Below are positions 22,053 to 54,948 of a stretch of 56,336 nucleotides of DNA, piece by piece. Source of the stretch: a virus; the IMG/VR virus record IMGVR_UViG_3300017917_003998, positions 1 through 56,336 of that record. One strand, given 5' to 3'. The position numbers and the translations under genes were made by a program. The first letter of the stretch is position 1. Each line of letters opens with the position of its first letter. A model generated the notes under the pieces. That model did not search any database. It worked only from the letters and a program-made list of their open reading frames with translations, and had not been told where the DNA came from.

Positions 22053-22062
22053 TATTAATTAA

Positions 22063-22692: not shown

Positions 22693-22693
22693 A

Positions 22694-23860: not shown

Positions 23861-23866
23861 TATTTA

Positions 23867-23894
23867 ATTATACTTGATTTACCTAATATTTCAA
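23867..23894 (-). promoter_or_regulatory. Sigma-70-type promoter, leaderless geometry, for gmd-methyltransferase-rmlB
   Basis: Minus strand: TTGAAA, 16-base spacer, TATAAT, then six bases to the ATG at 23860. It lies in the 44-base gap after the DUF5672 gene and gives the last three genes of the island their own transcript. Confidence 0.65.
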
Positions 23895-23904
23895 TATTAA
23901 ATAT

Positions 23905-24573
23905 TTAACAAATATAAGAATCAAAATCTTTTTTATATTTTATATTCTCTCCACCAAAATTATGAAAACAAAATGGTTTTATATTAAAATATTCTGGAAA
24001 TATTTCTTCGTGAGAAAAATATTTCGCAATTTCTGGTGGGGCATATTTAATGCCATTTTTTAAAAATAAATTCCTATTCCATACGCAAATTTGAGTATCT
24101 TCATTATAATTATTATCGTATGAAATCCATGACATATTAAATCTCTTAGGAATATCTAATAGTTTTTTGCTTCGTAAAGATACGCTATTGCCTATTTCTA
24201 TTATATTCCCTTGATAGTCTTTTAAATGTTTGTGGCCCCATTTTGCTCCAATATAATCATATTCTAAAAATTCTTCTCTCCAAGATGATGAATTCACAAT
24301 AAAACCGTCATCATGAATCAATATAACGAAATCGCTATATATATAATCTGTTAAGTTATATACTATCTGACGATTCCATTCTTCTATACTTGATATTTTT
24401 TCTATGTATTCATATTGTATTTTACTTGGTAAATTTTTTGGTTTTTCATGAGTAATAATTTTTATATCAAAAAAATTTATATCTCTTGAGCTATACATTA
24501 AAGCTTTAATTGTTTGATCTACATCAATAGATGTCATCGCCGCGAGAGTTACATTGGGCAAATTTAATTTCAT
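23905..24573 (-). CDS. DUF5672-type putative glycosyltransferase (copy 1)
   Basis: This 222-residue protein carries the DUF5672 pattern: PNVTLAAMTSIDVDQTIKAL near the start, IKIITHEKP, then FVILIHDDGFIVNSSSWREE with an acidic D-D-G, FLEYDYIGAKWG, and ending HEEIFPEYFNIKPFCFHNFGG. DUF5672 proteins are found beside glycosyltransferases and are thought to transfer sugars, the H-D-D serving like a DxD motif. The second copy at 31349 is similar along its full length, so one probably arose by duplication within this island. It overlaps the GT11 gene upstream by four bases. Donor and acceptor unknown. Confidence 0.8.
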   Translation of the reverse strand: MKLNLPNVTLAAMTSIDVDQTIKALMYSSRDINFFDIKIITHEKPKNLPSKIQYEYIEKISSIEEWNRQIVYNLTDYIYSDFVILIHDDGFIVNSSSWREEFLEYDYIGAKWGHKHLKDYQGNIIEIGNSVSLRSKKLLDIPKRFNMSWISYDNNYNEDTQICVWNRNLFLKNGIKYAPPEIAKYFSHEEIFPEYFNIKPFCFHNFGGENIKYKKDFDSYIC

Positions 24574-25334
24574 ATATAAATAAAACCATCTGTTTTTATA
24601 TCAATTGGGTAAAAACCAAGTTCAGGTTTATTATAATTCAACCAATTATTGGGCGCAATTACTTTTTCTTTTTCTTTTAACCAAGCTGGCCACCAAGCGA
24701 AAGATGAATTACTAATAATAGTATATCTTGAATTTAATAATAATAGAAAATCTGTTTTCATATCTTCTGATAGATTTTCTATATGTGGAAAAGAATTAGA
24801 AGCTTCATTTTGATCATCAGTAATAATCAAAAATTTAATATCTTTTTTTATATTTTTAATATAATTAATAGATTTTTGGTAATAATCTTTATTTAAAAAC
24901 CAATGATTATGATTTTTATAATCTGTTCCCCTTAGATGAATATAACAAAAATCTTTCGGGTTATATTTATTCAATAAAAATTTTGCTTTTTCAGAAAGAG
25001 CTAAATTGAACCAGCTTCGTACAATTTTTTCATAGTCTTTGTAATATCTAGGAGATTGAAAAAATCCCGAGATCTTTGTAAAATCAGGAATTTGAAATAT
25101 TTGCGGATTAAATGTTTGTAGATTATGATCTTCATTAAAAATAAATTTTATATCACCATCTTTTTTTCCTAATTCAATATTTTCAAAAAAATCTTTGACA
25201 TGCATTCCTTCAGTAGAAGGTTCGCCGATTTCTTCTATATAAAAATTATAATTATTTTTTAACGCTATAAGTCTACAAATAACATATTGAAATATTTGAT
25301 TGCCTAAACGACCTTTAAGAGATATTGATATCAT
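24570..25334 (-). CDS. GT11 family glycosyltransferase (alpha-1,2-fucosyltransferase-like), copy 1
   Basis: This 254-residue GT-B enzyme of the GT11 type transfers L-fucose (or a related 6-deoxyhexose such as colitose) from its GDP derivative. The start LKGRLGNQIFQYVICRLIA is the family signature, followed by CYIHLRGTDYKN (H-x-R-G-x-D-Y, donor site), FLIITDDQ and finally TIISNSSFAWWPAWL. Copies 2 and 3 lie at 30416 and 34836. GDP-4-keto-6-deoxymannose could come from gmd in the same island, but no clear fucose synthase is seen. It overlaps neighbours on both sides (4 and 20 bases). Confidence 0.88.
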   Translation of the reverse strand: MISISLKGRLGNQIFQYVICRLIALKNNYNFYIEEIGEPSTEGMHVKDFFENIELGKKDGDIKFIFNEDHNLQTFNPQIFQIPDFTKISGFFQSPRYYKDYEKIVRSWFNLALSEKAKFLLNKYNPKDFCYIHLRGTDYKNHNHWFLNKDYYQKSINYIKNIKKDIKFLIITDDQNEASNSFPHIENLSEDMKTDFLLLLNSRYTIISNSSFAWWPAWLKEKEKVIAPNNWLNYNKPELGFYPIDIKTDGFIYI

Positions 25335-26298
25335 ATATTTTTAATATATTATTATACAGATTTTTTATATCTAATTTAGATAAATCAAATATCTTCATTA
25401 ATTCAAACAGATAAGAATTTTGTATCAAAAGGTCTTTAGTTATATCAAAAAAAGAATTAACAAATAAGACAGGGATACCTTTAAAAATTTCTTCTAAATA
25501 TTTACTTTTTTCTAAAATTGGTACCCTTCTCATGTATAAAGTTTCCCAATCTCTTGAGCATTCACAACCTATAGCATTCCCATCGCAACATAACATAAAT
25601 TTATGTTTTTTTATTGCTGTTAGATAATTTTGATAATGAATAGGCTCTATCCCTATTGGGGATTCTATCGTAACATAATCTTCTTTTTTAAATTTTTCAT
25701 TTATTTCAATTCTTTTATTATTTACTCCAACGCTATGGTTTATATATAATAGATTTTCTAATTCTAAATTTAATTCTGTATCTATATTTTTTATCAAGAC
25801 TTCGTGCCTGTAGTCTGATGGGAATAATTTTCTTTGTATTCCATATGGAATAGGATGAACCTTACCCCCAAATGATATGCAATTAGAAGCATATATCCCT
25901 AATACATTTGATGGGATTTTATCAAAAATTTCGTCGTCTATAGGAGTATCTTCAAATCCAGTAAAAATTATAAAATTCATATCATTTAATTGAGCGCATA
26001 ATTTTAATAAATCTTCATTTTTTAATTGTTCTAATCTAAAAAGTTTAAATTTTTTACTTTCTTCATTTATCAACTCGTTATTTGTTAGCTTTGCATTTCT
26101 ATGATAAAGTCTAATATTATCTATAAATAATGTCATTATTTTTTTCTTATTTTCTTTAAATTGATTATATTTATTTAAAAACTCTAAGTTGCTTAAATTT
26201 GCTGCTTTCATATATCCGCATGGGAGATGAGAACCAGATTGATCTCCAAAAGAATAATCAACATTATCTCTAATGTACGTAGGATCTAATAAAACCAT
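25315..26298 (-). CDS. Exostosin-like (GT47-type) putative glycosyltransferase
   Basis: This 327-residue protein has a C-terminal half that fits the exostosin pattern: HKFMLCCDGNAIGCECSRDWETLYMRRVPILEKS, then IPVLFVNSFFDITKDLL. In the family this is '..F.lcp.G...d..R.wEal..g.iPv......l......v...w'. The first half contains GGKVHPIPYGIQRKLFP and LYINHSVGVNNKR. The open frame begins at 26343 but would overlap the upstream methyltransferase by 38 bases. The ATG at 26298 leaves a seven-base gap and is chosen here. Its activity is likely sugar transfer, but donor and linkage cannot be read. Confidence 0.6.
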   Translation of the reverse strand: MVLLDPTYIRDNVDYSFGDQSGSHLPCGYMKAANLSNLEFLNKYNQFKENKKKIMTLFIDNIRLYHRNAKLTNNELINEESKKFKLFRLEQLKNEDLLKLCAQLNDMNFIIFTGFEDTPIDDEIFDKIPSNVLGIYASNCISFGGKVHPIPYGIQRKLFPSDYRHEVLIKNIDTELNLELENLLYINHSVGVNNKRIEINEKFKKEDYVTIESPIGIEPIHYQNYLTAIKKHKFMLCCDGNAIGCECSRDWETLYMRRVPILEKSKYLEEIFKGIPVLFVNSFFDITKDLLIQNSYLFELMKIFDLSKLDIKNLYNNILKIYDINIS

Positions 26299-26305
26299 AA
26301 TATGC

Positions 26306-26914
26306 TTAAGGTCTCCAAATACCGATGCCACCAAAATGTTCATTATTTCCTTGTGATTTTATTTTTCCACAAGATTTAGTGCATATTAGATTTAATTTTG
26401 TTCCTTCATTTAATTCTTCCCAAAATTTATATACTTGCCCCCCAAAGTTATCAGCATGAACATGATCTGGATCAATATCATGAAAAGCAATAAATCCTCT
26501 TGGTGATAATAATTGTTTATATAAATTAAAATCTCTTTTTACCCCATCATATGTATGATCGCCGTCTATAAAAATAAAATCAAATTGATTACAAAATTCT
26601 TTTACTTTATTAAAAGATTCTTCTGTCTGAGAATTACCAACGAAAAGTTTCCAATCATCTTCTTTATCCATGAATTCAGATAATATATCATCTATTGGGA
26701 TTAAATTCATGGCAACTTTTTTCCCTGTTGATAGTTTTGATATTAACCAAAATGTTCCGCCTTTATGTACTCCTATTTCTAATATATTATTAGGTTTAAA
26801 GCCTTGAAGCCAGTATCCTAAAGCTATAATTTCCTCGTAAACTTGTAGTGTATCATTTTTATTTGCAACTAAATACTCATCTATTAATTCTTTTATATCT
26901 ATATTATTTTTCAC
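26306..26914 (-). CDS. Class I SAM-dependent methyltransferase (cephalosporin hydroxylase/CmcI-like)
   Basis: This 202-residue methyltransferase has ILEIGVHKGGTFWLISKL as SAM motif, FIFIDGDHTYDGVKRDF with the metal-binding D-G-D-H, and FIAFHDIDPDHVHAD. This Methyltransf_24 arrangement is common beside phage and bacterial glycan genes, where the enzyme methylates a sugar hydroxyl. It differs from the methyltransferase at 22063 in the D-G-D-H motif and length. The stop of the upstream fusion gene abuts its ATG with no spacer, so the two are co-translated. Substrate not known. Confidence 0.75.
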   Translation of the reverse strand: MKNNIDIKELIDEYLVANKNDTLQVYEEIIALGYWLQGFKPNNILEIGVHKGGTFWLISKLSTGKKVAMNLIPIDDILSEFMDKEDDWKLFVGNSQTEESFNKVKEFCNQFDFIFIDGDHTYDGVKRDFNLYKQLLSPRGFIAFHDIDPDHVHADNFGGQVYKFWEELNEGTKLNLICTKSCGKIKSQGNNEHFGGIGIWRP

Positions 26915-29494
26915 TTAGATAAAATCGTTTATAAAATTAATTTTATATAAATCTTTTATATTGATAAATTTAACGCCTTTAGTAATTAAATCTTGATTAT
27001 TTTTTATAATTTCATTGTAAAAATTCCAAGCAAGAACAACAATAACATCTGGTAAATTATTATGGCAATATTCTTTATTTTTAATAGGAATATTAACGCC
27101 AGGAATAATTTTATTATTTTTTAATTCATTATCTTCGATAGTATATTCTATATATGAATTATCTATGCCAAAATAATTTAATGATGTTGTTGCTTTGGCC
27201 GGAGAACCATAAGAACAAATTTTATTATATTTTTGTTTTAATTTTTTAAAATTATTAATAACATTTTCTTTAACTTTCTCAACTTGATTTTTAAATTCTT
27301 TATAAGTATTAATATCATTAATACCAAATTCAGCTTCTTTTTGCAGGAAAGTTTGTACATTTTTACTAATATTGTTGCCTGTTTTATTTACGAATACTCT
27401 AATTGAACCGCCATGAGTATTTATGTGTTCAATATCGTAAACATAAAATCCAAGATTCTTGAAAAAGTTGTTAATTGATGTTACTGACCAATAATTAACA
27501 TGTTCATGATAAATATTATCAAATGTTAGATCATTGATTGTATCCAGTAAATATTGGACTTCAATAATAAAACTACCGTCTTCTTTTAAGAGTCTAAATG
27601 ATTCGTTACAAATATTTACAAGTTCATCTGAATGCGCAAAAACATTGGATGCCGTAACCAATTTTGCTTGTCCATATTTTTTGATTATTTGGTCAACAAC
27701 ATCAGATTTAAAGTAAGCATTCAGCGTATTAATACCTTTGTTATTAGCGATTTCGGAAATATTTTTAGCGGGTTCGACGCCTAATACTTTAATATTTTTT
27801 TCCATGAGTGGTTTTAGTGCAACGCCATCATTGCTACCGATATCAACAACTAAATCATTTGATGTTAAATTAAATCTTTTAATATAAGAGCTTGCTGCAT
27901 TTTCAAAGTGTTCACGAAAAGATGCTGCTGTTGATGATACATAAAGATAATTATCAAACATTTTTTCTGGTTCAACAACGTAAGATAATTGACAATTATG
28001 ACAATTTGGACAATATTTCATCTCAAGTGGAAACATTTCTGCTTTTTCGCTTTTATTATTTAATAAATTATTTGCTAATGGAGATAGACCCAGGCTTATA
28101 ACATCTTTAAGTTTTTCATTACTGCAAGAACGGCATTTTCTTGAATAATTATTTAAAATATTATTTCTAAATTTTTCATCAACTAATGTATATGGAATGG
28201 TATGAGTTATTCCATAGTTTTCATGCTCTCTTTCTCCGCGTACAAGATTTAAAAAGATAGAATCTTCTAAAAATACCATTGTATGTGCAACGTTTGGCTT
28301 TATTACCGCAATATCTCCTTGATTAATAATTCTTGTTTCAATAGGAGAATCTGGATATGCAAGATCTTTAATAACACTTACATATTTACCTTTAATTAAT
28401 AAACATTTTTGTTCTTGGATTGGGTGATAATGATTTGCTCGGACTGTTCCTGCTTTTGATTCAATATAACCAATAAGATTTATTGGCTCTGTAAGTTCAT
28501 AGTTACTAATTTTGCCTCTTGCATCAATAAATTCTTTGCCACCATTGATTATATATTCTAATTCTGTCTTAATGTTTTTTTCTGACCAATTTTCGATCAT
28601 GTCTTTAATGGCATTCTCTAAATTATAAAGAAATTTAAATCCTGTATTTAAAAGTTTTTTATTAGATAAAGTATATCCTAAGTTAGGTATTTCGTCATTT
28701 GTAGAAATTAATTCTATATTTGGTTTAAATTTTTTACAAATTTCTGCGACCTCTTTAACTGTTTTATTTTCTTTTGTTAAATGAAAAGTTTCATTTTCTA
28801 TTTTTGATTCTTCCATGAATTTAAAACATCTTGCTACGTCTAATAATGGAACTAAACTTTTATATTGAACCCCACCAGAAAAAAGTTTAATTGAGTCATT
28901 TTGAGATGCCATTTTAGAGAAAAGATTGGGCATAATCCCAATTCTCATAGTGTCTCCCGAATATCCATAAACAGAACCTAAGCGAAGTATAATGTATTTT
29001 TTATTTGAATTTCTTATATCATTTTCATTTTGGACTTTACATTTTGAATAAGTTAGGACTGGGCATGGTACAACTTCTTCTTCTATATCTAATTTTGTTT
29101 CATTAAATCCTTCGTAAACTACATGGGTCGAGGGAAAGATTATTTTACAGTTATTAGAGATGGAATTTAAAATATTCAACGTTCCATCAATAGCCCCCTC
29201 AATAATTTCTTTATCTTTTTCTGGAATTTCTTGAGTTTTTACATATGCGACATCAGTAATTCCAGCTAAGTGATGAACAACATCCGCGTCTTTGCAAATC
29301 TCTAGAATTTTTTCTTTATTTAAAATTGAAGTTTGATAAAATTGAAATCCCCAATCTCTTAACTGTTTAACTTTTTCAGAAATAAATCTTGAATCTAAAA
29401 CTATTATATTTTTATATCTTGTTTCGCCAGAATATAATTTGCATAATTCACTACCAATATATCCAAGTCCACCAGTTATAACTATTTTCTTCAT
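26915..29494 (-). CDS. Three-domain sugar enzyme: NAD epimerase + cupin epimerase + C-methyltransferase
   Basis: This 859-residue fusion starts (1-300) as an NAD-dependent SDR with IVITGGLGYIGSELCKLY, HLAGITDVAYV and STHVVYEGFNETK and the T-Y-S-K segment YSKCKV. At about 330-435 a double-stranded beta-helix (cupin) follows, with NHYHPIQEQKCLLIKG and ISQGDIAVIKPNVAH-like pattern (here INQGDIAVIKPNVAHTMVF), resembling dTDP-sugar 3,4- or 3,5-isomerases. From about 450 comes a C-methyltransferase: zinc-binding CRSCSN...CPNCHNCQ (Methyltransf_13), SAM motif VVDIGSNDGVALKPL near 546 and a C-terminal Methyltransf_14-like part with THGGSIRVFVNK. It would make a C-methyl branched deoxysugar, as TylC3/EvaC-type enzymes do. 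Confidence 0.82.
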   Translation of the reverse strand: MKKIVITGGLGYIGSELCKLYSGETRYKNIIVLDSRFISEKVKQLRDWGFQFYQTSILNKEKILEICKDADVVHHLAGITDVAYVKTQEIPEKDKEIIEGAIDGTLNILNSISNNCKIIFPSTHVVYEGFNETKLDIEEEVVPCPVLTYSKCKVQNENDIRNSNKKYIILRLGSVYGYSGDTMRIGIMPNLFSKMASQNDSIKLFSGGVQYKSLVPLLDVARCFKFMEESKIENETFHLTKENKTVKEVAEICKKFKPNIELISTNDEIPNLGYTLSNKKLLNTGFKFLYNLENAIKDMIENWSEKNIKTELEYIINGGKEFIDARGKISNYELTEPINLIGYIESKAGTVRANHYHPIQEQKCLLIKGKYVSVIKDLAYPDSPIETRIINQGDIAVIKPNVAHTMVFLEDSIFLNLVRGEREHENYGITHTIPYTLVDEKFRNNILNNYSRKCRSCSNEKLKDVISLGLSPLANNLLNNKSEKAEMFPLEMKYCPNCHNCQLSYVVEPEKMFDNYLYVSSTAASFREHFENAASSYIKRFNLTSNDLVVDIGSNDGVALKPLMEKNIKVLGVEPAKNISEIANNKGINTLNAYFKSDVVDQIIKKYGQAKLVTASNVFAHSDELVNICNESFRLLKEDGSFIIEVQYLLDTINDLTFDNIYHEHVNYWSVTSINNFFKNLGFYVYDIEHINTHGGSIRVFVNKTGNNISKNVQTFLQKEAEFGINDINTYKEFKNQVEKVKENVINNFKKLKQKYNKICSYGSPAKATTSLNYFGIDNSYIEYTIEDNELKNNKIIPGVNIPIKNKEYCHNNLPDVIVVLAWNFYNEIIKNNQDLITKGVKFINIKDLYKINFINDFI

Positions 29495-29504
29495 AATTTA
29501 TATT

Positions 29505-30416
29505 TTATGTTGGTTTTATTAAATAATCAAACTTATTTTTGATAAAATCAACCATCCTCTGAGGATAAGAATATGTATTTAGGTCTATAACTTGTAAATT
29601 ATCAAAATAATATTTTTGAAATTTATCTTGATATGTATAATTTGTTCTATTAAATAAATCGGAATTTGAATTTATTTTATTATTAATATTATTTAAATAA
29701 TTTGAATTGTTAAATTCTTGATGTGAATAACTTTGTATCTTGGTCTTAATTCTTTCTGGGCCTCCAACAAAACTAAGATGCCAGCCACCATTAAATATTT
29801 TATTGATATTTACTCTCTCGTTTCTTAAGTGAGTTAAAGAATTAGACTTTGTTTTTTCGTAATATACAATATAATTTCCATACCAATTTGTATGAGCTAT
29901 ATTATTAATATAATAATTATGGCAATCCATCATGATACAATGATCTACTAGAGACTTTTCTTTTACTTCATCTATAACATTTGGATTTGGAATTTCGTCT
30001 AAATCAGAAACCATGATTACATCATCATATTGACAATTTATTAGCCCAAGTTTAATAAATTCTCTTTGCATGTAATCTCTGGCGAATGTTGGAAATTGTT
30101 TTAATCCATTTTCATTTTCGACATTAAAAATATCTATAATTTTATTATATTCTATATCATATTTATTTGAACTTTGTTTTTTTATCGGATTTAGAATATC
30201 ATTAGGCATTTCTTCTTTAACGTGAATTATTTTATCTAAATATTTAGAGAATGTTTTTTTATTATTTTCAAAAAATAATTCTTTGTCTTTATTTGAATGA
30301 GTTTTATTTGTTTCGCTTATTACAAAATAATCAACGTGATTATATAATAGCTCTAGTCTTATTTCCAGTAGGTCTAATTCATTAAAAAATTGAAAACAAT
30401 CGTATATTTTTTTCAT
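29505..30416 (-). CDS. GT17 family glycosyltransferase
   Basis: This 303-residue protein resembles GT17, the family of beta-1,4-N-acetylglucosaminyltransferase III. It opens KIYDCFQFFNELDLLEIRLE, then VDYFVISETNKTHSNKDKEL (family pattern 'v..fvi.Ea..T..g..k'), FPTFARDYMQREFIK, and DVIMVSDLDEIPNP with the D-x-D-E metal-binding site. The middle GNYIVYYEKTKSN and GWHLSFVGGPERIKTKIQSYSHQEF complete the match. GT17 genes are frequent in marine and large-phage glycan islands. The start overlaps the upstream GT11 by one base; ten bases separate it from the fusion gene downstream. Confidence 0.82.
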   Translation of the reverse strand: MKKIYDCFQFFNELDLLEIRLELLYNHVDYFVISETNKTHSNKDKELFFENNKKTFSKYLDKIIHVKEEMPNDILNPIKKQSSNKYDIEYNKIIDIFNVENENGLKQFPTFARDYMQREFIKLGLINCQYDDVIMVSDLDEIPNPNVIDEVKEKSLVDHCIMMDCHNYYINNIAHTNWYGNYIVYYEKTKSNSLTHLRNERVNINKIFNGGWHLSFVGGPERIKTKIQSYSHQEFNNSNYLNNINNKINSNSDLFNRTNYTYQDKFQKYYFDNLQVIDLNTYSYPQRMVDFIKNKFDYLIKPT

Positions 30417-31345
30417 TAATTTAATCCATTCTTTTCATAAAATTGTAGCGCTTCTTTTTTACAAGTTTCGTAATCGAAGATCTCTCCTTCTCTATCAAGA
30501 TAATTAAAACCTCTAGCATATGAATCTCCCAATGACCAATATCCATTGCTTATGTTATGTTTCGCCCAATATTTTGGAGCTAAAATTAAATTAGCTTTTT
30601 TATTAAGCCACCCCGCCCACCATCCAAAACTAGAATTCGATAATATTATATATTTACTTTGATTAATTACATAAAAGTCAAAGCCAATATCTAAATGATA
30701 GCAAGGATAATCTCCTATATAAAATCTTGCGCAATCTGAATCATCTGTTATAATTATAAATTTCATCTTAGGATTTATATTCAACATGTAATCTATTGAA
30801 TCTTTCCAATACTCCGCTCTACATATTAAATTCTTAACATTTCTGTATTCCCCACCTCTAAAATTTATAGCGCAAAGATTTTGATCTAAAATAATACCTA
30901 ATTCATTTAATTTTTTATTATATAAATCTATATATTCATCCATTATTTGAAACCAATCTGAAACGTCTTTTTTCCTGTCTATTAGATAATCTTCGGATTG
31001 GGATATTAAATGTATCATCGTGTTATCTTTAATATTAAAAACATTAGAATCGTACATATTAATTAAACATTTATCATCTTTGTATTCATGAAATTTATGT
31101 TTATCATAGTATTCATTATTTATTCCTTCGTATAAATTTAAGCCATGTTTATTTTTACCAATAACTTTTAATTTTTCGCCATAATTAACATTCATAAAAT
31201 AAAATTGGCTTTTTCCGTTATAGTAATCATGCGTAGGTATTGGATTTATTCCCCAAGTATAACCCAATTTTTCCGCTACGATTCTACAAATAGAATAATA
31301 CCACATGTGATTTCCAAAATTGCCAGTTAGATTTGTTGTTATCAT
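30416..31345 (-). CDS. GT11 family glycosyltransferase, copy 2
   Basis: This 309-residue GT11-type protein begins MITTNLTGNFGNHMWYYSICR, a variant of the G-x-L-G-N-Q opening in which Q is H. It has CAINFRGGEYRN in the H-x-R-x-x-D-Y position (N and G-G-E replace H and T/R-D) and FIIITDDSDCARFYIG. It ends ILSNSSFGWWAGWLNKK. The altered donor-site motif suggests a different or modified donor compared with copies 1 and 3, or reduced activity. It is separated from the DUF5672 gene by three bases. The same role as other GT11s is likely: adding a 6-deoxyhexose to a glycan. Confidence 0.78.
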   Translation of the reverse strand: MITTNLTGNFGNHMWYYSICRIVAEKLGYTWGINPIPTHDYYNGKSQFYFMNVNYGEKLKVIGKNKHGLNLYEGINNEYYDKHKFHEYKDDKCLINMYDSNVFNIKDNTMIHLISQSEDYLIDRKKDVSDWFQIMDEYIDLYNKKLNELGIILDQNLCAINFRGGEYRNVKNLICRAEYWKDSIDYMLNINPKMKFIIITDDSDCARFYIGDYPCYHLDIGFDFYVINQSKYIILSNSSFGWWAGWLNKKANLILAPKYWAKHNISNGYWSLGDSYARGFNYLDREGEIFDYETCKKEALQFYEKNGLN

Positions 31346-31348
31346 AGA

Positions 31349-32011
31349 TTATATAAATTTTGGATAATATTTATTTAATCCTTCATAGTTGTGAAATGCA
31401 AATGGTTTAATATTTTCTATTTCAGGAATATAGTGTTCATGGGAAAAATATTTTGCAATTTCTATATCTGCAAATTTCATACCATTTTTTATATATTCAT
31501 GTCTATAATTTACGCATATAAAACCATCTTCATTTGAATATCCATGAAATTTTTTCCATTCTAAATTTAATTTATTCGGAAGATCTATTAATCTTTTACT
31601 TCTTAAAGAAACGCTATTTCCAACTCTAATTATATTTTGATTTATATCTCTATATGAAAAATTATCGGTTGGTAATGGCCAAGGCGCTCCTATATAGTCG
31701 TATTCTAAGAAATCATCACGCCAACTTTCCGGATTTACAATAAAACCATTATCATGAATTAATATTGCATATTCTGTATTAATATATTTACCTAAAGAAT
31801 ATATTATATGATAGTTCCATTCATCTATATTTGAAATTTTTTGAATAAATTCATGTTTTATATTTGGAGATAAAATATGGGGTTTTGTATCTGATACAAT
31901 TTTAACTTCTGCGAATTTTATATTTCTACAACTATATTCTAGTGCTTTAATTGTTTCGGGAATCTTAACGGAAGTGACAGCTATTAAAGTTATTTTAGTT
32001 AAATTTAACAT
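31349..32011 (-). CDS. DUF5672-type putative glycosyltransferase (copy 2)
   Basis: This 220-residue protein is a relative of the protein at 23905 over its full length. LTKITLIAVTSVKIPETIKAL matches the start, then YAILIHDNGFIVNPESWRDDFLEYDYIGAPWPLP, where D-N-G replaces the D-D-G of copy 1. The end reads HYIPEIENIKPFAFHNYEG. The GAPWP motif and NSVSLRSKRLIDLP are closer to database-typical DUF5672 than copy 1. The changed acidic motif may alter metal binding or donor. It sits between an SDR gene and GT11 copy 2, three bases from each. Confidence 0.8.
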   Translation of the reverse strand: MLNLTKITLIAVTSVKIPETIKALEYSCRNIKFAEVKIVSDTKPHILSPNIKHEFIQKISNIDEWNYHIIYSLGKYINTEYAILIHDNGFIVNPESWRDDFLEYDYIGAPWPLPTDNFSYRDINQNIIRVGNSVSLRSKRLIDLPNKLNLEWKKFHGYSNEDGFICVNYRHEYIKNGMKFADIEIAKYFSHEHYIPEIENIKPFAFHNYEGLNKYYPKFI

Positions 32012-32014
32012 ATT

Positions 32015-32845
32015 TTAACTACAAATCATTTTTATTCCATCTTCAATTGATATCTTTGGTTTAAAACCCAAGCTATGAAGCTTCGAAACGTCCATGTAAA
32101 AATCTCTAGATTGAACTAAATTGTGAAATTTTGGCGTTTCTATAGAATTTATTTTGCTTGAACTGTTAAGTATTGTTTTTGCATATTCTATAATATATCT
32201 AATTGATATTGGTTTACCGCTACCTACATTATATATAGAATTATATTCTCCATTTTCACAAATCATTTTAATTGCTGCGCAAATATCAAATACATGCATC
32301 ATGTCTCTTAAAACATATCCATCTTCATAAAGATTAATTTCTTTATTTTCTTTTAAAAGATTAATCATATATTGAATTGCATTTTTCTTTCCAGAACATT
32401 TTGCGTCACCATTGCCATAAACATTACATAATCTAAGTATTCTATATTTAATATTAAAATACTGACAATAAGTAGCAAGTAATTGCTCTGCTGTTCTTTT
32501 TGTGATGGAATAAAATCCTGTTGGATCACAGTAATCACTTTCTCTTGCTGGTAGCCTACATCTTCCATATACAAACCATGAACTTATAAAATTGAAAGTT
32601 AAATCTTTATTCTTGCAATTTTCTAAAACTTTCAATAATTTTGTTATATTAGTTTCTACATCTTTATGTATATTTTCTAGCATATTATAATTATCTATAG
32701 TACTAATCATATATAGAATATTATTATTTTTTGGTATATCATCTTCTCTTGGGTGAACGTATACTTTATCTTTAAAAAGACTTTTAAAATTAGATCCTAT
32801 AAAACCTGTACCACCGAATAGGTCTATCTTATTCGATGTATTCAT
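32015..32845 (-). CDS. NAD-dependent sugar epimerase/dehydratase (SDR)
   Basis: This 276-residue extended SDR has DLFGGTGFIGSNFKSLF as the nucleotide-binding loop, then FISSWFVYGR and FYSITKRTAEQLLATYC with the Y-x3-K catalytic pair, and ILRLCNVYGNGD. The C-terminal YVLRDMMHVFDICAAIKMIC matches the epimerase substrate domain. It cannot be assigned precisely: candidates are a 4-reductase or 2-epimerase acting after the RfbH-like dehydratase next to it, as in tyvelose, paratose or colitose routes. It overlaps the 3' end of that gene by 17 bases, so the two are translationally coupled. Confidence 0.75.
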   Translation of the reverse strand: MNTSNKIDLFGGTGFIGSNFKSLFKDKVYVHPREDDIPKNNNILYMISTIDNYNMLENIHKDVETNITKLLKVLENCKNKDLTFNFISSWFVYGRCRLPARESDYCDPTGFYSITKRTAEQLLATYCQYFNIKYRILRLCNVYGNGDAKCSGKKNAIQYMINLLKENKEINLYEDGYVLRDMMHVFDICAAIKMICENGEYNSIYNVGSGKPISIRYIIEYAKTILNSSSKINSIETPKFHNLVQSRDFYMDVSKLHSLGFKPKISIEDGIKMICS

Positions 32846-34127
32846 TTATTTTATTTTCTATATATTTTATATTATCTTCTGTAATTGTGGGAGAGCAACC
32901 TACAAAAAATACTTTTTCTAAAACTTTATTTGCATTTGGATAATTTTTCCAATCTTCTAAATGTTTATATGCCGGATGCAATAATATATTACCTGCAAAA
33001 TAATTTCTAGTTTGTATACCGTTGTTCTCAAGATAGTCTACTAAATTATTTTTAGATAAATAGCATCCACAAATAATAGGCACTCCAAACCATGATACAT
33101 CTGCATTTTCGAATACAGAAGGAAATTGTAAATCTTTAATTTTAGAAAAAATACTTTCAATTTTATTTTTGTTCAAAACTCTGATTTGATGAAATTCCTC
33201 CATCTTTTTTAATTGAATTAATCCAATCGCTCCTTGTAAATCTAGTGGTTTTAAGTTATATCCTATTTGAGTAAAGAAATACTTATGATCAATATTATAT
33301 GGAACTTCTTTAATCCAATTAGAAAATCTAGCATTACAGCTTCCATTCTTCAATAAATTACAACTTCCTATGCAATAGCAATCTCTACCCCACCATGCAA
33401 AGCTTCTAGCTATTTTAATAATTTCTTCTACATTTGAAGAGACCATGCCTCCCTCTCCAGTAGTTAAATGATGAGCTGGATAAAAAGAGCAGCTTGAGGT
33501 TACGCAATATTCATTAAGATGTCTATTTCTCCATTTGCTTCCAAAACTATCGCATCCATCTAAAATTAATTCTATGTTATATTTTTTAGAGATTTCAATA
33601 AGTTTATCAAAATCTGGTGGATTACCTAAAACAGGAGATATGAATATAGCTTTTGTATTTTTAGTTATTTTAGATTCCAATTGATTTAGGTCAAAATTTA
33701 AGGTATCAAACTCAATATCTACAAATACTGGTTTTAAATTATTTTGAATAATTGGGTTTAAAGTAGTTGGGAAGCCTACTACAGATACTAAAATTTCATC
33801 ATTATCTTGCCAGTTAAAATACTTTTTAAGTGCAGCGACCATAACTAGATTAGCTGAACTACCTGAATTAACCATTACTGAATATTTTTGGTTTATTTTT
33901 TTAGAAAATTCTTTTTCAAATTTCGCAACGCTTTCACCACTTGCAAGCCATTTGCCAAAAAGAAGATTATCTATGGCTTCAACAAGTTCTTCTTTTGTAT
34001 ATGATGGCCCACCATAATAAACTTTATTTTTTGTATCTTTTAGATTATGACAGAATTGAGGTATAAATAAAGACTCTTCTTTTTCAAGAGATAAAAGAAA
34101 ACTTAATATTTTATCTTTTCTGTTCAC
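32829..34127 (-). CDS. rfbH: RfbH-like NDP-4-keto-6-deoxyhexose 3-dehydratase (PLP and Fe-S type)
   Basis: This 432-residue protein of the DegT/DnrJ/EryC1/StrS fold has the usual PLP-lysine replaced by histidine at about residue 220 (SFYPAHHLTTGEGGMV). This is the signature of 3-dehydratases (E1/RfbH and ColD) that remove the C3 hydroxyl on the way to 3,6-dideoxyhexoses. Four cysteines match the E1 iron-sulfur site: LDGCDSFGSKW, then GRDCYCIGSC and NGSC. GTG is the start. A perfect -35/-10 promoter lies 11 bases upstream inside the end of the previous gene. Likely product: a 3,6-dideoxy sugar such as paratose, abequose or colitose; the nucleotide carrier cannot be read. Confidence 0.85.
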   Translation of the reverse strand: MNRKDKILSFLLSLEKEESLFIPQFCHNLKDTKNKVYYGGPSYTKEELVEAIDNLLFGKWLASGESVAKFEKEFSKKINQKYSVMVNSGSSANLVMVAALKKYFNWQDNDEILVSVVGFPTTLNPIIQNNLKPVFVDIEFDTLNFDLNQLESKITKNTKAIFISPVLGNPPDFDKLIEISKKYNIELILDGCDSFGSKWRNRHLNEYCVTSSCSFYPAHHLTTGEGGMVSSNVEEIIKIARSFAWWGRDCYCIGSCNLLKNGSCNARFSNWIKEVPYNIDHKYFFTQIGYNLKPLDLQGAIGLIQLKKMEEFHQIRVLNKNKIESIFSKIKDLQFPSVFENADVSWFGVPIICGCYLSKNNLVDYLENNGIQTRNYFAGNILLHPAYKHLEDWKNYPNANKVLEKVFFVGCSPTITEDNIKYIENKINEYIE

Positions 34128-34134
34128 TAGTATT

Positions 34135-34833
34135 TTATATTATAAGGTTAATATTATATTTTGTCAAAATATATTCAGTTTCTTTATTTTTTATCTCTTG
34201 TGATATAATGCTAGAAGATTGTTCCTGACTTAATCTATTTACAACATTAATTTTATTTAAAATTTTTGGTAACCCGAATTTTCTGTATAACCTTTCGTAA
34301 TAATCAACGTCCATTAACCATGTCAAATTTTCATCAAACATCATAATGTCTTCTGTATTTTTTATGGTCAAGACACTCGGACAACTAATTGTATTGTTCC
34401 CTAATAATATATTTGAGTTATAGGTTGGATAAAATGGCCTAATATATCTATAATTTTTGTCGTCAAGATGTTCTGTTCCTGTTACAAGCCAGTAGGTGTC
34501 TCTATCGATTTCTTTATATATATCTGACAAGCTATCTTTTGAATATAAAAAATCGTCTTGAAATAGTATTTTGATAAAATCACCTTTACATTTTTTTATT
34601 GTATTATTTAAATTACCAGACATGCTTCTGTTTGGATTTTTAAAATAATTGATATTTAATTTTTGGGAATAAATTCGACATAACTCTTGGATTTTATCAT
34701 CTAAACTATTATCAGATACTACTATTTCAAAATCTCTAAAAGATTGATTTTCTAAAATATTAAGGCTGAATTTTAAAAATTCAACTCCTTTCCCATTAGC
34801 TTCGTATGCGGGGATAGCTACTGAAAAAAACAT
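34135..34833 (-). CDS. GT2 family glycosyltransferase (A)
   Basis: This 232-residue GT-A enzyme starts MFFSVAIPAYEANGKGVEFLKFSL. It contains FEIVVSDNSLDDKIQEL, NPNRSMSGNLNNTIKKCKG and FIKILFQDDFLY, with Q-D-D as the metal- and nucleotide-binding DxD. DENLTWLMDVDYYERLYRKFG supplies the acceptor-side acidic residue. It is short for the family, a single catalytic domain without membrane segment, suggesting a cytoplasmic enzyme. A promoter for the next gene is embedded in its 3' end. It is two bases downstream of the GT11 copy 3 gene. Confidence 0.85.
   Translation of the reverse strand: MFFSVAIPAYEANGKGVEFLKFSLNILENQSFRDFEIVVSDNSLDDKIQELCRIYSQKLNINYFKNPNRSMSGNLNNTIKKCKGDFIKILFQDDFLYSKDSLSDIYKEIDRDTYWLVTGTEHLDDKNYRYIRPFYPTYNSNILLGNNTISCPSVLTIKNTEDIMMFDENLTWLMDVDYYERLYRKFGLPKILNKINVVNRLSQEQSSSIISQEIKNKETEYILTKYNINLII
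34139..34167 (-). promoter_or_regulatory. Perfect-consensus sigma-70 promoter inside the glycan island, for rfbH-like gene
   Basis: Minus strand: TTGACA, 17-base spacer, TATAAT, then 11 bases to the GTG at 34127. It predicts a leader of only about four or five bases. It lies within the last codons of the GT2 gene and would start transcription of the second half of the island. Confidence 0.75.
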
Positions 34834-34835
34834 AT

Positions 34836-35609
34836 TTATATTTTAATCCATTTTTCTAAGGCTGGATCGGATTTTTTAGGTCCATTTATACCAAACCAAT
34901 TTTTAGGTGAAATTATTATTTTATTTTTATTTTTATTTATCCAAGCTCCCCACCAACTAAATGTACTGTTTGTTATAATATTATTTTGACATTTCGACAT
35001 CATGTACAAATCCGTAATGTTATCTTCTCCTTCAATAAAAATTGTTTTATTAAATTTTATATTATCTTTGCACCAGTTAATATCATCAGAGAAAACTAGT
35101 ACGTTTATATTATTATCAGTTAATAAATCATATGCATTTTTAAAATAATCTAAAGATTGATTATAATGAAAATCAGATAAAGATATATAATCTGTTCTCC
35201 TGACGTGAATTGATACTGTGTTTTCACCAAGTACTGGATATTTATTTTTAATATAATTATCTAAATCATCTTGGATTTCTAGTTTATTCCTTATTGTTGT
35301 CTCTGAGTCTTTAAAAAAAAATTCGTTCTGCCAGTAACCATATAAATATGTTGGATTTACATATTGTATATCAAAAGAGTTTAAATCAGTTTCTTTAATA
35401 ATGTTTACATTTTTATTTATATCTTCCGGTTGAGCGATATTAATTTCAATATTTTTAAATTTATATAATTCAAACTTTCTATGATTTTGATTTAAATAAA
35501 AAGATATATCAAAATTAATCTTTGTATTATTTTTTAGGGCTAAATTTTCTGCTACTGCCCATTGAAAAAGTTGATTACCCAAACCTCCTTGCAAAAAAGT
35601 AGTAATCAT
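34836..35609 (-). CDS. GT11 family alpha-1,2-fucosyltransferase-like, copy 3
   Basis: This 257-residue protein is the best GT11 match in the window. It begins LQGGLGNQLFQWAVAENLALKN, has VSIHVRRTDYISLSDFHYNQS with the H-x-R-R-x-D-Y donor motif intact, then VLVFSDDINWCKDNIKF. It ends NIITNSTFSWWGAWINK and SPKNWFG. All key positions of bacterial alpha-1,2-fucosyltransferases are present. Family members transfer L-fucose or, in some O-antigens, colitose from the GDP-sugar to galactose. GDP-sugar supply is suggested by gmd at 22694. Start overlaps the rhamnose-type SDR gene by one base. Confidence 0.9.
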   Translation of the reverse strand: MITTFLQGGLGNQLFQWAVAENLALKNNTKINFDISFYLNQNHRKFELYKFKNIEINIAQPEDINKNVNIIKETDLNSFDIQYVNPTYLYGYWQNEFFFKDSETTIRNKLEIQDDLDNYIKNKYPVLGENTVSIHVRRTDYISLSDFHYNQSLDYFKNAYDLLTDNNINVLVFSDDINWCKDNIKFNKTIFIEGEDNITDLYMMSKCQNNIITNSTFSWWGAWINKNKNKIIISPKNWFGINGPKKSDPALEKWIKI

Positions 35610-36472
35610 TATTTTTTATAATTTTTAATACAATATTCAATTTTATCATGAATATTTTCTATTTTAAATCCGCTTTCTAATAGTTTTGAATTATCTAACA
35701 CGCAATTTGATCTTGGTGTCTTTGCGGCTTTTTGGTAAAATTCTTCTTCATTTTTAAAAAAAGTAAATTTTCTTTTTGTTATGTATTTATTTAATAATTT
35801 AGTAACATCAAACGTGTTAATTGAACCTGTATTAGTTATATTGTATATTCCAGGCTCACATTCTTTCTCTATAAGATAAAGACAGGCTTGAATAAACTCA
35901 TCTGTATTACTCATAGAGTTTTCTACATTTAAAAGTTTTTTATAATTTAATATTTTTGTTATATAATTTTTAGAAGATTCTCTATCGTCAAATGGAATTC
36001 TTAGTCTGCATATATAAACATTTTTATCAAATTTTAAGATATCCTCGCCAGCGGCTTTAGTTCCGCTATAATAAGAGCATGGCTGTTTATCAAAACAAAA
36101 ATTAGGCGTATCAATTTCTTTAAATCCATTTTCATTTTTTGTGCCACTATATATACATCCACTTGATACATGTACCCATTTTTTATTTAAATCATTACAT
36201 ATTTTTGACAAATTTTTAGGCAATGTATAATTTTGTAACCAGCATAATTCTTTATTTGATTCGCAGGCGTCAACATTTGGTTTACCAGTATATCCAGCGC
36301 AGTTAATAATATATTTTGTATCTATTTTTTTTAATATTTTATAAAGTTTTGTCGTATTTAAAAAATCGCAATTTTTTCTATTAAGAGCAACGACGTCATA
36401 ATTTTTACTTTTTAAAAAATTAGTAAAATTTTTACCTACGAATCCATTTGAGCCTAAAACAACTATCTTCAT
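35609..36472 (-). CDS. NRS/ER-like 4-keto-6-deoxyhexose 3,5-epimerase/4-reductase
   Basis: This 287-residue SDR resembles the bifunctional NRS/ER proteins that finish UDP-L-rhamnose synthesis in plants and some giant viruses, more than bacterial RmlD. Matching pieces, in order, are IVVLGSNGFVGKNF, NCAGYTGKPNVDACESNK, VHVSSGCIYSG, GFKEIDTPNFCF, YYSGTKAAGEDIL with Y-x3-K, CRLRIPF, NYITKILNYKKLLNVENSMS and KTPRSNCVLDNSKL. Given the RmlB at 21078, the phage could make NDP-L-rhamnose without separate RmlC and RmlD. It has its own promoter eight bases before the ATG. Function by similarity only; the nucleotide (UDP or dTDP) is unknown. Confidence 0.8.
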   Translation of the reverse strand: MKIVVLGSNGFVGKNFTNFLKSKNYDVVALNRKNCDFLNTTKLYKILKKIDTKYIINCAGYTGKPNVDACESNKELCWLQNYTLPKNLSKICNDLNKKWVHVSSGCIYSGTKNENGFKEIDTPNFCFDKQPCSYYSGTKAAGEDILKFDKNVYICRLRIPFDDRESSKNYITKILNYKKLLNVENSMSNTDEFIQACLYLIEKECEPGIYNITNTGSINTFDVTKLLNKYITKRKFTFFKNEEEFYQKAAKTPRSNCVLDNSKLLESGFKIENIHDKIEYCIKNYKK

Positions 36473-36480
36473 GTTAATAT

Positions 36481-36509
36481 ATTATATTTAATCTATTTAT
36501 CAAAATCAA
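36481..36509 (-). promoter_or_regulatory. Sigma-70-type promoter, leaderless geometry, for the gene starting at 36472
   Basis: Minus strand: TTGATT, 17-base spacer, TATAAT, then eight bases to the ATG. The -35 box overlaps the stop codon of the GT2 gene ending at 36506. Confidence 0.65.
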
Positions 36510-37222
36510 AAATATCGCGGTGAATATAAATCTTGGGTTCTCTTATTTAATAAGAATACCGAGTGGTTCTGCAAATTTTGATATACTTTTGGTTCATAAG
36601 TATATTCAACTAAAACTTTATTTACATTATAAAATTTACAAAAACTTAAACATCTTAGCCATAAATCTAAATCTTCTGCGTATTTATATGTATCATCATA
36701 TCCACCGATAAAATTAAATATATATTTTTTATAAATAACGCTAGGATGAGCTATCGGATTTCTACCATTAATTAACCACTGTTTTATTATCGTATCGTCT
36801 GTTGGGTATTCAGAATATTCAAATGGTAAAATAATATTTTCATTCGCTTTGATAAAATGCATTTGCGTGCCACATATATCTACTTCTTTATTTTGCATTA
36901 AAAAGTTCATCTGAATTTCAATTTTATCTAAATGCCAAATATCATCTTGATCCATTCGGGCTACGTATTCTATTTCATCATCATTCTGAATTTTATATAA
37001 TCCAGCATTTAGAGCTGCTCCTATTCCAACGTGCGGAGACTTAATATAGACTAAATGATTGTAATTTTTTATTTCTTCTATTAGATTATCCGAGGACATG
37101 TTATCAACTAAATATATTTTATATTGATTTTTTTTAAAAAAAGTTTGATTTATTACAGAATCTATAGCTCTTTTAATTGTTTTTCCGCCGTTCCTAACTG
37201 GGAGAAGTACGCCAATTTTCAT
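36506..37222 (-). CDS. GT2 family glycosyltransferase (B)
   Basis: This 238-residue GT-A enzyme has IGVLLPVRNGGKTIKRAIDSVINQTF as the opening Rossmann part, then YLVDNMSSDNLIEEI, IGAALNAGLYKI and VARMDQDDIWHLDKI with the Q-D-D metal site. GYDDTYKYAEDLDLWLRCLSF contains the acidic E-D at the acceptor site. It resembles rhamnosyl- and galactosyltransferases of O-antigen loci, but the donor cannot be read. It ends in a short basic tail (LLNKRTQDLYSPRYF). Overlaps the upstream SDR gene by four bases. Confidence 0.88.
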   Translation of the reverse strand: MKIGVLLPVRNGGKTIKRAIDSVINQTFFKKNQYKIYLVDNMSSDNLIEEIKNYNHLVYIKSPHVGIGAALNAGLYKIQNDDEIEYVARMDQDDIWHLDKIEIQMNFLMQNKEVDICGTQMHFIKANENIILPFEYSEYPTDDTIIKQWLINGRNPIAHPSVIYKKYIFNFIGGYDDTYKYAEDLDLWLRCLSFCKFYNVNKVLVEYTYEPKVYQNLQNHSVFLLNKRTQDLYSPRYF

Positions 37223-37887
37223 AAATATTTCTGTATCACTTTCTTAGTATAACCGAAAGAAGATATATTTAATTCTTTAATCGCTAAATCTATCTCTACA
37301 GAATTTTCATTAAAATATTCTTGTCTATCTTTATGAAAAGATAATATAGGTTTAATATCTATCTTTTCTGAAATTAAATTTATAATTTGTTCAATTTTCA
37401 TAAATTCAATTCCAGCTATATTTAAAATGTTCTTGTCTTTTATATCACAAGTTTTTTGACAAATACTCACTAAATCTTCTACGTCAAGCAAGCTTCTTAA
37501 GGATTCTGGATATATGAATATATTTCTAGTATCGCGTATAGATTTTACTAAAAAATTTATAAGATTAGCTTTGTTCCCGCCTTTACCAATTATCTGAGGC
37601 AATCTATAAATGCAATATTTTTCCGCATTGTTTTTAATTATATCTTCAATTTTAATTTTATGATTTGTATATGTAGATTTTATACTAAAAATAGAAGTTG
37701 TGCTAAAATATATAATTTTTTTATTTTTATTATTTTTAATAACATTTAATAATAAGTTTTCTTCTCTTTTATATTCTAAAAAATTTTTTTCTAGAGAATT
37801 GGAGACACCAGAAGCAAATATTATTTTATCTTCTTGATTTTTGAAATTTATAAAACTTCTTGCGAGTAATCCATTACCTGTTATCAT
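37219..37887 (-). CDS. Short SDR-type epimerase/dehydratase-like protein
   Basis: This 222-residue protein starts MITGNGLLARSFINF, a shortened nucleotide-binding loop. It then has IIYFSTTSIFSIKSTYTNHKIKIEDI and YCIYRLPQIIGKGGNKANLINFLV, and ends in the usual epimerase C-terminal region (LRSLLDVEDLVSIC, LNIAGIEFMKIEQI). The catalytic Y-x3-K is replaced (YTNHK retains only a related spacing), so it may be inactive or use a different residue. It is shorter than typical (about 300 residues). Two bases separate it from the glycosyltransferase gene upstream, in one operon with the GT2 gene downstream. Confidence 0.6.
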   Translation of the reverse strand: MITGNGLLARSFINFKNQEDKIIFASGVSNSLEKNFLEYKREENLLLNVIKNNKNKKIIYFSTTSIFSIKSTYTNHKIKIEDIIKNNAEKYCIYRLPQIIGKGGNKANLINFLVKSIRDTRNIFIYPESLRSLLDVEDLVSICQKTCDIKDKNILNIAGIEFMKIEQIINLISEKIDIKPILSFHKDRQEYFNENSVEIDLAIKELNISSFGYTKKVIQKYL

Positions 37888-37888
37888 T

Positions 37889-38776
37889 TTAAAGAGAGTC
37901 TATAGTATCCCAAAAATATTTTGGTCTTCCAATTAAATATTCTTCTGTTTTGGTCTCGTCTTTCCACCACCATTCAGTTATATGTTGAGAATTTATATTG
38001 GTTATAATATCTAATCCTAATAATCTTGCTTCTATAATACATCTCGGACAAGTATCATCTATAACAGGAAGAAAGATGATTCCCTTATATTTGGACAAAG
38101 CCTCTATATGTTTTTCATATTCTTGCACTGGTAAAATATCATAATCTATTCGATTTGCTTCGCAAAAATTTTTAGCTTCTTCTAGGCCCTTAGCTTTGCT
38201 ATGCCATCCACCAAATCCTTGTAGAATTGCGTACTTATTATTCTTCGGCACATTTTTAAATTTATCGAAAAGTTTAAATGTATTTTTTGAAAAACATGAA
38301 GAAAGTATACCAGTCTTAGAAAAATCAATGTTTGGCATATGATTTATATATATAGCTCTTTGTCTTTCAGACATAAAGAAAGAGAATAAAGAGTTCTTTG
38401 CAATTAAATCGTAGATTTTAGAAAGAGATGGATGACCAGTTAATCCATGCGGGCACGAACAAACCTGATTAACTAAAGTCTTGTGAGGTATTTCTCCTCT
38501 ATATGGACAAAAATTATAATCAAATTCTAATTTTATAAATTTAGTTTTATTGAATAATTCTTCAATTACCAATGGATTTGGATTGTTAATTAATGACATG
38601 ATATTGCCTATAATCCATAATTTATCAGAATTTTCTTTTATACTAGATAGCGACAATGAAGCTGTTTGAAGAGAAAAGATATCTTTTTGTCTATCTTCTA
38701 AAATAGACATCGTAGTTAGATTTGTGCCTCCAATTTCTATGGCATTATCATCGAGAAGTATGTATTTTTTAAACAT
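37889..38776 (-). CDS. GT-B fold glycosyltransferase-like protein, first gene of the glycan island
   Basis: This 295-residue protein is likely a GT-B enzyme, but the match is partial. The C-terminal half contains YAILQGFGGWHSKAKGLEEAKNFC and YKGIIFLPVIDDTCPRCIIEARLLGLDII, a pattern like the GT4 donor-binding region ('...P...E..p....EA...G.pvi'). The N-terminal half has GGTNLTTMSILEDR and CPYRGEIPHKTLVNQVCSCPHGLTGHPSLSKIYDLI, with several cysteines. The promoter ends eight bases before the ATG. It is the 5'-most gene of the minus-strand island. Confidence 0.55.
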   Translation of the reverse strand: MFKKYILLDDNAIEIGGTNLTTMSILEDRQKDIFSLQTASLSLSSIKENSDKLWIIGNIMSLINNPNPLVIEELFNKTKFIKLEFDYNFCPYRGEIPHKTLVNQVCSCPHGLTGHPSLSKIYDLIAKNSLFSFFMSERQRAIYINHMPNIDFSKTGILSSCFSKNTFKLFDKFKNVPKNNKYAILQGFGGWHSKAKGLEEAKNFCEANRIDYDILPVQEYEKHIEALSKYKGIIFLPVIDDTCPRCIIEARLLGLDIITNINSQHITEWWWKDETKTEEYLIGRPKYFWDTIDSL

Positions 38777-39106: not shown

Positions 39107-39135
39107 TTGACAAAGTATATTGTTTGTAGTACTAT
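39107..39135 (+). promoter_or_regulatory. Strong sigma-70-type promoter for the structured RNA
   Basis: Plus strand: TTGACA, 17-base spacer, TACTAT, predicted start about 39142. No open frame follows within the next 390 bases, so this promoter belongs to the RNA (and possibly to nrdA by read-through). Confidence 0.75.
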
Positions 39136-39141
39136 GGTATA

Positions 39142-39450
39142 CTACATATCGCCCTATTAGCGAAAAGGTTTACCGTACTCCTTAAAATGGTGAGTTTGGT
39201 TAGTTCTAGCGTCGGGCAACGCTATCAAAGCTTGCGACCCGAGAAACCAGAGAAATCTGGGAGTGTAGGTGTAAGGGCTAACGCGCGATGGATGATCCTA
39301 CCGACATCCGATAAGCGTTAGGGGCCGAAAGGCTATGAACTCAATTGGGAAGTTGAACTAACGGCTCTTACAGCCCTGTATGATTACAGGGAAAGCTTTG
39401 CTTTGAAGAAGCTCATTGGGAAGTTTTAATATAAACGTTTCCTACACTCT
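39142..39450 (+). ncRNA. Unidentified structured RNA of about 310 nt upstream of nrdA
   Basis: This region is clearly richer in G+C than its surroundings and contains no open frame over 60 codons. Helices can be drawn by hand. An outer stem 39261-39269 pairs with 39441-39449 (nine pairs, no mismatch). Inside, 39270-39279 pairs with 39363-39372 and 39278-39284 with 39315-39321. Hairpins with GNRA loops sit at 39247-39260 (GAAA), 39324-39333 (GAAA) and 39341-39356 (GGGA); a seven-pair hairpin is at 39374-39391. Upstream, hairpin 39207-39224 has an eight-base loop that can pair with 39232-39242, a pseudoknot. A motif TTGGGAAGTT is repeated at 39345 and, one base different, 39416. It matches no RNA class I can recall. 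Either a separate RNA or the leader of nrdA. Confidence 0.7.
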
Positions 39451-39536
39451 TTTTAGCTACCTTAAAGTTATGAACACTTATTTGTAAAATTTTCTTTTAT
39501 TTTTTTAAAAAAGGCTGTAAACTCTTCTTTAAGACT

Positions 39537-54556: not shown

Positions 54557-54558
54557 CT

Positions 54559-54948
54559 TGGACCTGCTCGGGGTCGAACCGAGGTCTTTTAGATAATTTA
54601 AATTAAAATACTACAAGTTTATTTCTTTTTATTTTTAGCGTTGTATAGATAAAAGAACAAACATACTCAGCGATTTTATTTTGAATACTAGACTTATAAA
54701 GAATAGAAAAACTTTATAAGTAAAGACATCTAAATACGCAATTATCCGTTAGATGTGTCGCGGTAATCACGCTGTAGAACTTAGGCTACAGAAACGGCCT
54801 CTTCTACTAGAGAAACTCTAGCCGAAAGATGACCTTTGTATTTAGCTGTTTTGGCAGTTAATACTTTCAAGACTTTTTAAAGAGACCCGTCTAAACCTCT
54901 ACCTGCATTTTAATTCTGACTACTAAAATCGAAACCAAATTCAGGCCC
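54559..54948 (-). ncRNA. ssrA: Transfer-messenger RNA (one-piece tmRNA)
   Basis: Minus strand. The 5' end GGGCCTGAATTTGGTTTCGA parallels E. coli tmRNA (GGGGCTGATTCTGGATTCGA). The 3' end CTCGGTTCGACCCCGAG is a perfect T stem-loop, followed directly by CAGGTCC, which pairs fully with the 5' GGGCCTG (seven pairs, one G-U) and then discriminator A. CCA is not encoded. A TGCAGGT element after the D region also matches. Length about 390 nt. It rescues stalled ribosomes by trans-translation. The reading frame for the tag is at 54781-54855. The 3' end lies three bases from the purA stop. Confidence 0.93.
54781..54855 (-). CDS. tmRNA tag reading frame (24 residues)
   Basis: It is decoded from the resume codon GCC after TTAACT to a TAA. 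The peptide starts AKTAKYKGHL and ends EEAVSVA. It is longer than the usual 8-15 residues and ends Val-Ala rather than Ala-Ala. The hydrophobic C-terminus fits a proteolysis tag. The resume codon was placed by analogy with the TAGTC|GCA of E. coli; no other frame here gives an uninterrupted alanine-led tag. Confidence 0.75.
   Translation of the reverse strand, partial: AKTAKYKGHLSARVSLVEEAVSVA

Follow-up and report, generated by a model that had tools for sequence, protein, structure and literature searches.

The question raised by this locus is whether the stretch upstream of nrdA specifies an RNA in its own right or is instead the leader of that gene, and what such an RNA might do. The window, that is the whole 56,336-base stretch analysed, is an uncultured virus record, the NrdA, DnaE and DnaB proteins of which are at most 54%, ∼31% and ∼27% identical, respectively, to those of cultured phages among the matches listed. 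To the left of the locus itself is a block of minus-strand genes, and to its right is nrdA. Elsewhere in the record, a DNA polymerase III alpha-like protein is apparently split between two minus-strand frames, 9625-12198 (at most ∼31% identical to cultured phages among the matches listed) and 13039-13788 (assigned by sight), and a long one-strand block at 21078-38776, also on the minus strand, resembles, by sight, sugar-nucleotide epimerases and glycosyltransferases.

The sequence-only reading had proposed a structured RNA of no recognised kind, preceded by a promoter of its own, a proposal that is supported by the promoter, by the negative outcome of the Rfam searches and by compensatory changes among homologues. 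The promoter, of sigma-70 type, is present on the plus strand at 39107-39135, comprising TTGACA (39107-39112), a spacer of 17 nt and TACTAT (39130-39135). It is kept upstream of the homologues described below: of 62 distinct upstream regions, 58 contain TTGACA and 60 match at least 10 of the 12 promoter positions, compared with 2.7% of random windows; conservation of this kind is expected of a free-standing RNA gene. The RNA gene is placed at 39144-39427 on the plus strand, its 5′ end being deduced from the promoter and from where conservation begins, and its 3′ end being set where conservation falls off, which in group D is after the second of two repeats (X2, ending the conserved RNA at ∼39427). 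Lengths across the family are ∼285-320 nt, with one copy per phage. A conserved terminator was not found downstream, terminator-like sequences occurring in 27 of 64 loci versus 59 of 256 controls, and without a common position.

The G+C content of the stretch, 0.44-0.52 as against 0.21-0.30 on both sides, agrees with its earlier description as GC-richer, and the associated claim that it holds no open frame is borne out in that the single ORF of at least 40 codons within it encodes 44 amino acids. Since the median length of the longest stop-free stretch is 43 codons over all homologues, no reading frame is conserved. Folding of the window RNA is associated with an energy z score of −4.2, none of 100 shuffled sequences being as good. 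The reverse strand also folds with low energy (z = −3.1), and the strand was therefore assigned from the promoter and the homologues rather than from energy. Searches with the 4227 families of Rfam 15 at their gathering scores left the RNA stretch unmatched, the sole hit in the window being a tmRNA. Scanned at E values of up to 10, the copies from L319, L005 and the window gave chance-level matches only, and no description of the RNA family was found in the literature searched, which took in few subscription papers.

Homologues were sought in 80 loci drawn from IMG/VR by NrdA search. In 17 of the 80, an RNA 75-85% identical to that of the window (blastn) is located upstream of nrdA; these form group A, to which the window belongs. 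Groups B and C, together with a single intermediate (L025), were reached via weak profile matches, whereas group D was revealed by a scan for the B/C repeat pattern. Two further scans yielded few more members, and a scan for copies resembling L025 returned the same contig only. In total, ∼65 distinct homologues were found, all in uncultured AT-rich phages. A covariance model (R1) built from B, C and D sequences only, and searched over 1.09 Mb, recovers the window RNA (31.5 bits, E ∼0.001) along the full model, as it does the remaining RNAs of group A, and its matches in the 1.09 Mb are confined to loci where the RNA was expected. Since a model constructed without group A finds the group A RNAs at full length, groups A to D are considered to be one family.

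With a second model comprising all groups (R2), exactly one match was obtained in 23 of the 24 records (56-172 kb) that represent the clade, and the remaining record, that of L025, contains a divergent copy detected by HMM. Every record examined from this clade of uncultured large phages, 24 in all, thus has the RNA. Conversely, the models identified no copy in seven records with NrdA 77-80% identical, apart from a marginal match in one (G045, E = 0.045) where no repeats were found. Searches of cultured phages gave only short DNA matches at chance level, all with E of ∼0.1 or worse; the best unfiltered R2 match in parts of two Pelagibacter phage genomes had an E value of 0.62; and none of 117 stretches returned by a pattern scan of bacterial genomes scored above the HMM chance level.

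The fold is best described from the 5′ end. Hairpin P1 (39149-39152 with 39160-39163) has a stem that is kept via different pairs in groups A to D, and hairpin P2 (39172-39176 with 39187-39191) contains one pair that is significant in group A in a phylogeny-aware test, a home-made procedure in the style of R-scape that was run within groups. There follows the 5′ strand (39192-39206) of a long-range helix, P_L, the 3′ strand of which is at 39355-39367, such that the strand before P3 is connected to the strand directly after the first repeat, X1. Hairpin P3 (39214-39240) has an inner stem of CGC/GCG, one pair of which is either UA or CG in all 46 sequences of the B/C/D alignment and is significant (E = 0.025) in a stricter all-pairs test. 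Hairpins P4 (39247-39260) and P6 (39324-39333) carry GAAA loops in the window, in keeping with the GNRA-capped hairpins noted earlier. Between them, the strand GUAGG (39265-39269) pairs with the P5c loop at 39297-39301, confirming the suspected loop-to-strand pseudoknot; the paired strands are GUAGG/CCUAC in group A, GUAGCU/AGCUAC in D and GUGGCU/AGCCAC in B, with weaker pairing in three C sequences. P5c (39290-39294 with 39305-39309) caps P5 (39278-39284 with 39315-39321), the whole element (39278-39321) being supported by covariation, including three significant P5c pairs in group A. The previously noted seven-pair hairpin, P7, is present at 39374-39391 and is paired in all groups by inspection, although alone it is not significant in the phylogeny-aware test, and the small hairpin P8 (39392-39404, AAAGC/GCUUU) is clear in group A and weak elsewhere; P7 and P8 accordingly rest mainly on inspection.

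Compensatory changes, which the sequence-only reading had suggested looking for among homologues, were found in the helices, as would be expected of a free-standing RNA, and they are strong between groups and modest within them. In the B/C/D alignment, 92.4% of cells pair, compared with 26-49% when partners are slid, and the covariation score is 0.439 versus 0.022-0.137. For 42 distinct sequences from all groups, in an alignment that was fitted to the structure, the score is 0.457 versus 0.014-0.091. The sequence of P_L differs by group, yet pairing is retained: UUAGUUC/GAACUAA in A, UAUCAAUCC/GGAUUGAUA in D and at least 14 pairs in B. Compensatory changes in P_L occur within as well as between groups, both sides having changed in L001, L066, L015, L347 and L460, and native strands have a mean energy of −14.5 kcal/mol as opposed to −8.9 kcal/mol when strands are swapped between sequences, while single P_L pairs are not significant in the phylogeny-aware test. 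In that test, six pairs are significant in group A and three in B/C/D, versus 0-2 for slid pairs, so that overall 9 of 88 variable pairs pass within single groups; the all-pairs test retains one column pair each in A and B/C/D. Since few pairs are significant within groups, the fold is considered well supported between groups and modestly so within them.

One helix of the earlier reading did not survive the comparison. The minimum-energy fold of the window sequence pairs AGUGUAGG with CCUACACU beyond 39440, giving a nine-pair outer helix, the 5′ arm of which overlaps the pseudoknot strand. Its 3′ arm (∼39442-39450) is outside the conserved RNA and holds a TACAC element which, together with a T-rich stretch (39441-39536), is conserved ahead of nrdA in every group, including relatives in which the RNA has another location; in B/D relatives, TACAC is ∼100 nt upstream of nrdA. 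The outer helix was rejected as probably spurious because its TACAC arm stays by nrdA when the RNA does not, and the 39441-39536 region is probably a control sequence of nrdA. A caution follows, namely that the best-energy fold of one sequence may take in the control element of a neighbouring gene.

The same comparison bears on the suggestion that the RNA is the leader, or a riboswitch, of nrdA. In groups A and C the RNA is indeed upstream of nrdA on the same strand. However, in groups B and D it lies away from that site, mostly on the strand opposite nrdA (in group B on the minus strand, ∼2 kb after nrdA), and in L011 a gene of 371 amino acids intervenes between the two, such that the constant position upstream of nrdA expected of a leader was not observed. 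In B and D, the RNA is instead 109-308 nt from the phage tmRNA, from which it is transcribed away, in 31 of 33 loci with a tmRNA in reach, whereas the three measurable distances in A and C are 6.5, 6.6 and 15 kb. The promoter, the neighbouring genes, which vary between loci, and the B/D copies beside tmRNA argue that the RNA is not a leader of nrdA, an explanation that is now very improbable. Together with the single match in 23 clade records and the divergent copy in the 24th, the promoter and varied neighbours indicate an independent gene.

Several observations were made on the tmRNA itself. The window encodes a one-piece tmRNA on the minus strand at 54558-54948, with an unusual tag of 24 residues (AKTAKYKGHLSARVSLVEEAVSVA), close variants of which occur in relatives; the end of the group B tag differs (...KKHLIAA). 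A protein of ∼69 amino acids is encoded next to the tmRNA in B, in D, in one C and in one A relative (for example at L002 10845-11054, L010 11389-11598 and L026 11475-11687), and its D form has no Pfam or PHROG match. The small ORF between the RNA and the tmRNA in B/D was considered as a protein partner of the RNA and set aside, as it accompanies the tmRNA and not the RNA. One group D relative (G015, L485-L491) has 11 tRNA genes besides the tmRNA.

The most unusual feature of the RNA is the repeat TTGGGAAGTT, which is present as two 12-nt copies near the 3′ end, ∼71 nt apart, with a shared core of UCA...AAGU. The repeated motif reported earlier corresponds to two copies of ATTGGGAAGTT, at 39344-39354 and 39415-39425. 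From the repeat comparison, the first copy, X1 (CUCAAUUGGGAAGU), was placed at 39340-39353, and the second, X2 (CUCAUUGGGAAGU), at 39412-39424, where it forms the 3′ end of the conserved RNA. Parsimony analysis on trees identified seven cleanly aligned substitution events, and in all seven the change is identical in both 12-nt copies. One change, in L015/L132, looks one-sided, although this vanishes if an extra X1 base is placed differently. Gene conversion of exactly 12 nt would seem unlikely because the sequences flanking X1 and X2 differ.

A base-pairing partner for the repeats was sought. No inverted repeat that would pair with the motif occurs inside the window RNA, and a search of 11 group A records, which are incomplete, gave no contiguous complement of that group's core. 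For the B/C/D motif, the only copy in 12 of 16 records is that within the RNA itself, and the other four have extra matches. Nothing consistent was found with the tmRNA as partner, and the P1 loop, which fits some A sequences, fails by inspection in L061 and in all D sequences. Since the copies change together and the complement is mostly absent, one partner outside the RNA, acting at two sites, is the simplest reading.

Judged from sequence, then, this is a new RNA family, undescribed and absent from Rfam, a view that follows from a single-copy folded RNA with its own promoter and two motifs that change together. As to function, the reading preferred here, at a probability of roughly 0.45, is that the RNA, the product of a free-standing phage gene, offers a single external partner two identical places to dock. 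The phage would transcribe the RNA from its own promoter during infection, and the conserved fold, in which P_L joins the 5′ to the 3′ part around P3, P4, P5/P5c, P6 and the pseudoknot, would display two putative docking sites: X1, which adjoins P_L in the junction, and X2, with which the conserved RNA ends. The candidate partner is a host or phage protein, or a host RNA, which the RNA may gather, sequester or scaffold. Only matched changes in both copies would be tolerated, as the same partner would have to be accommodated at each site. The putative docking is read from the co-change of X1 and X2 only. Clues of this kind, two direct repeats changing in lock-step, are rare, and the interaction with something beyond the RNA to which they point can be tested directly. 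A bolder version, which we hold to be doubtful, is that this is a new type of phage RNA machine, in which a rigid fold offers two identical single-stranded 12-nt sites to the same host or phage partner, with which it evolves in lock-step, and which is needed clade-wide.

Other explanations for the RNA may be set against docking to an outside partner. The RNA could feasibly be a self-assembling multimer of the GOLLD or ROOL kind, with both motifs making contact with equivalent sites on adjacent copies; it is phage-borne and pseudoknotted, has GNRA-like loops and is often beside tmRNA, and the missing complement is compatible with non-canonical contacts. Such an RNA is nevertheless unlikely to be what is seen here, being much shorter than GOLLD, with no Rfam match to GOLLD or ROOL and, by inspection, no convincing self-complementary loop kept in all groups. 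A counter-defence decoy is less probable again. The motifs would then be recognition or cleavage sites for a host RNA-acting defence enzyme, comparable to the pseudo-antitoxin RNAs with which phages counter type III toxin-antitoxin systems, with the 3′ end of the RNA cleaved at the second copy, as might be suggested by two identical sites at this spacing, by the end of conservation at the second and by the lack of a conserved terminator; phage RNA mimics of antitoxin repeats are on record (PMC3475682). However, type III antitoxins are made up of multiple RNA repeats (PMC8860590), as opposed to 12 nt occurring twice, and the presence of the RNA in every clade record would require a defence common to all hosts.

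That the RNA acts on itself, as a ribozyme or by binding a ligand, is suggested by the compact pseudoknotted fold, the GNRA-like loops and the conserved unpaired stretches, but the idea is improbable given that it matches no Rfam ribozyme or riboswitch and has neither a common downstream gene nor an expression platform. Slightly less credible still is a role in phage DNA replication, as primer or control RNA, in which the repeats would be DNA sites. The RNA does occupy the point where genes switch from minus to plus strand in the window and in G021, and is a few kb from it in G012, but it is ∼8-9 kb from the switch in G015 and G022, and the compensatory changes favour a role as RNA.

Among known systems, antitoxin RNAs of the ToxI type and the pseudo-ToxI of phages share a repeated RNA motif with the present family, and phage mimics are known (PMC3475682, PMC8860590); the difference is that a 12-nt unit here occurs twice in one large fold, rather than in an array of structured repeats of the sort that a ToxN-like enzyme recognises, and no toxin gene was noticed beside the RNA. 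The tmRNA (RF00023), although a genomic neighbour in B and D, is a separate RNA, the phages carrying their own recognisable tmRNA. The closest likeness is to GOLLD and ROOL, both of which are often near tRNA islands (PMC12286853). GOLLD is, like this RNA, phage-borne, structured and without known function, and its proximity to tRNA islands recalls that of the B/D copies to tmRNA. However, many GOLLD members exceed 800 nt, compared with ∼285-320 nt here, no covariance-model match was obtained, and the material available on GOLLD describes no counterpart to the two co-changing direct repeats. ROOL, described in the same source as a phage and prophage RNA with multiple pseudoknots, likewise gave no covariance-model match. 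In kind, therefore, the RNA resembles these orphan phage RNAs, though the covariance models place it in neither family. Given this likeness and the negative Rfam and literature searches, it is regarded as a new family within a known but poorly understood kind, an addition to the few orphan structured RNAs known from phages, GOLLD and ROOL among them.
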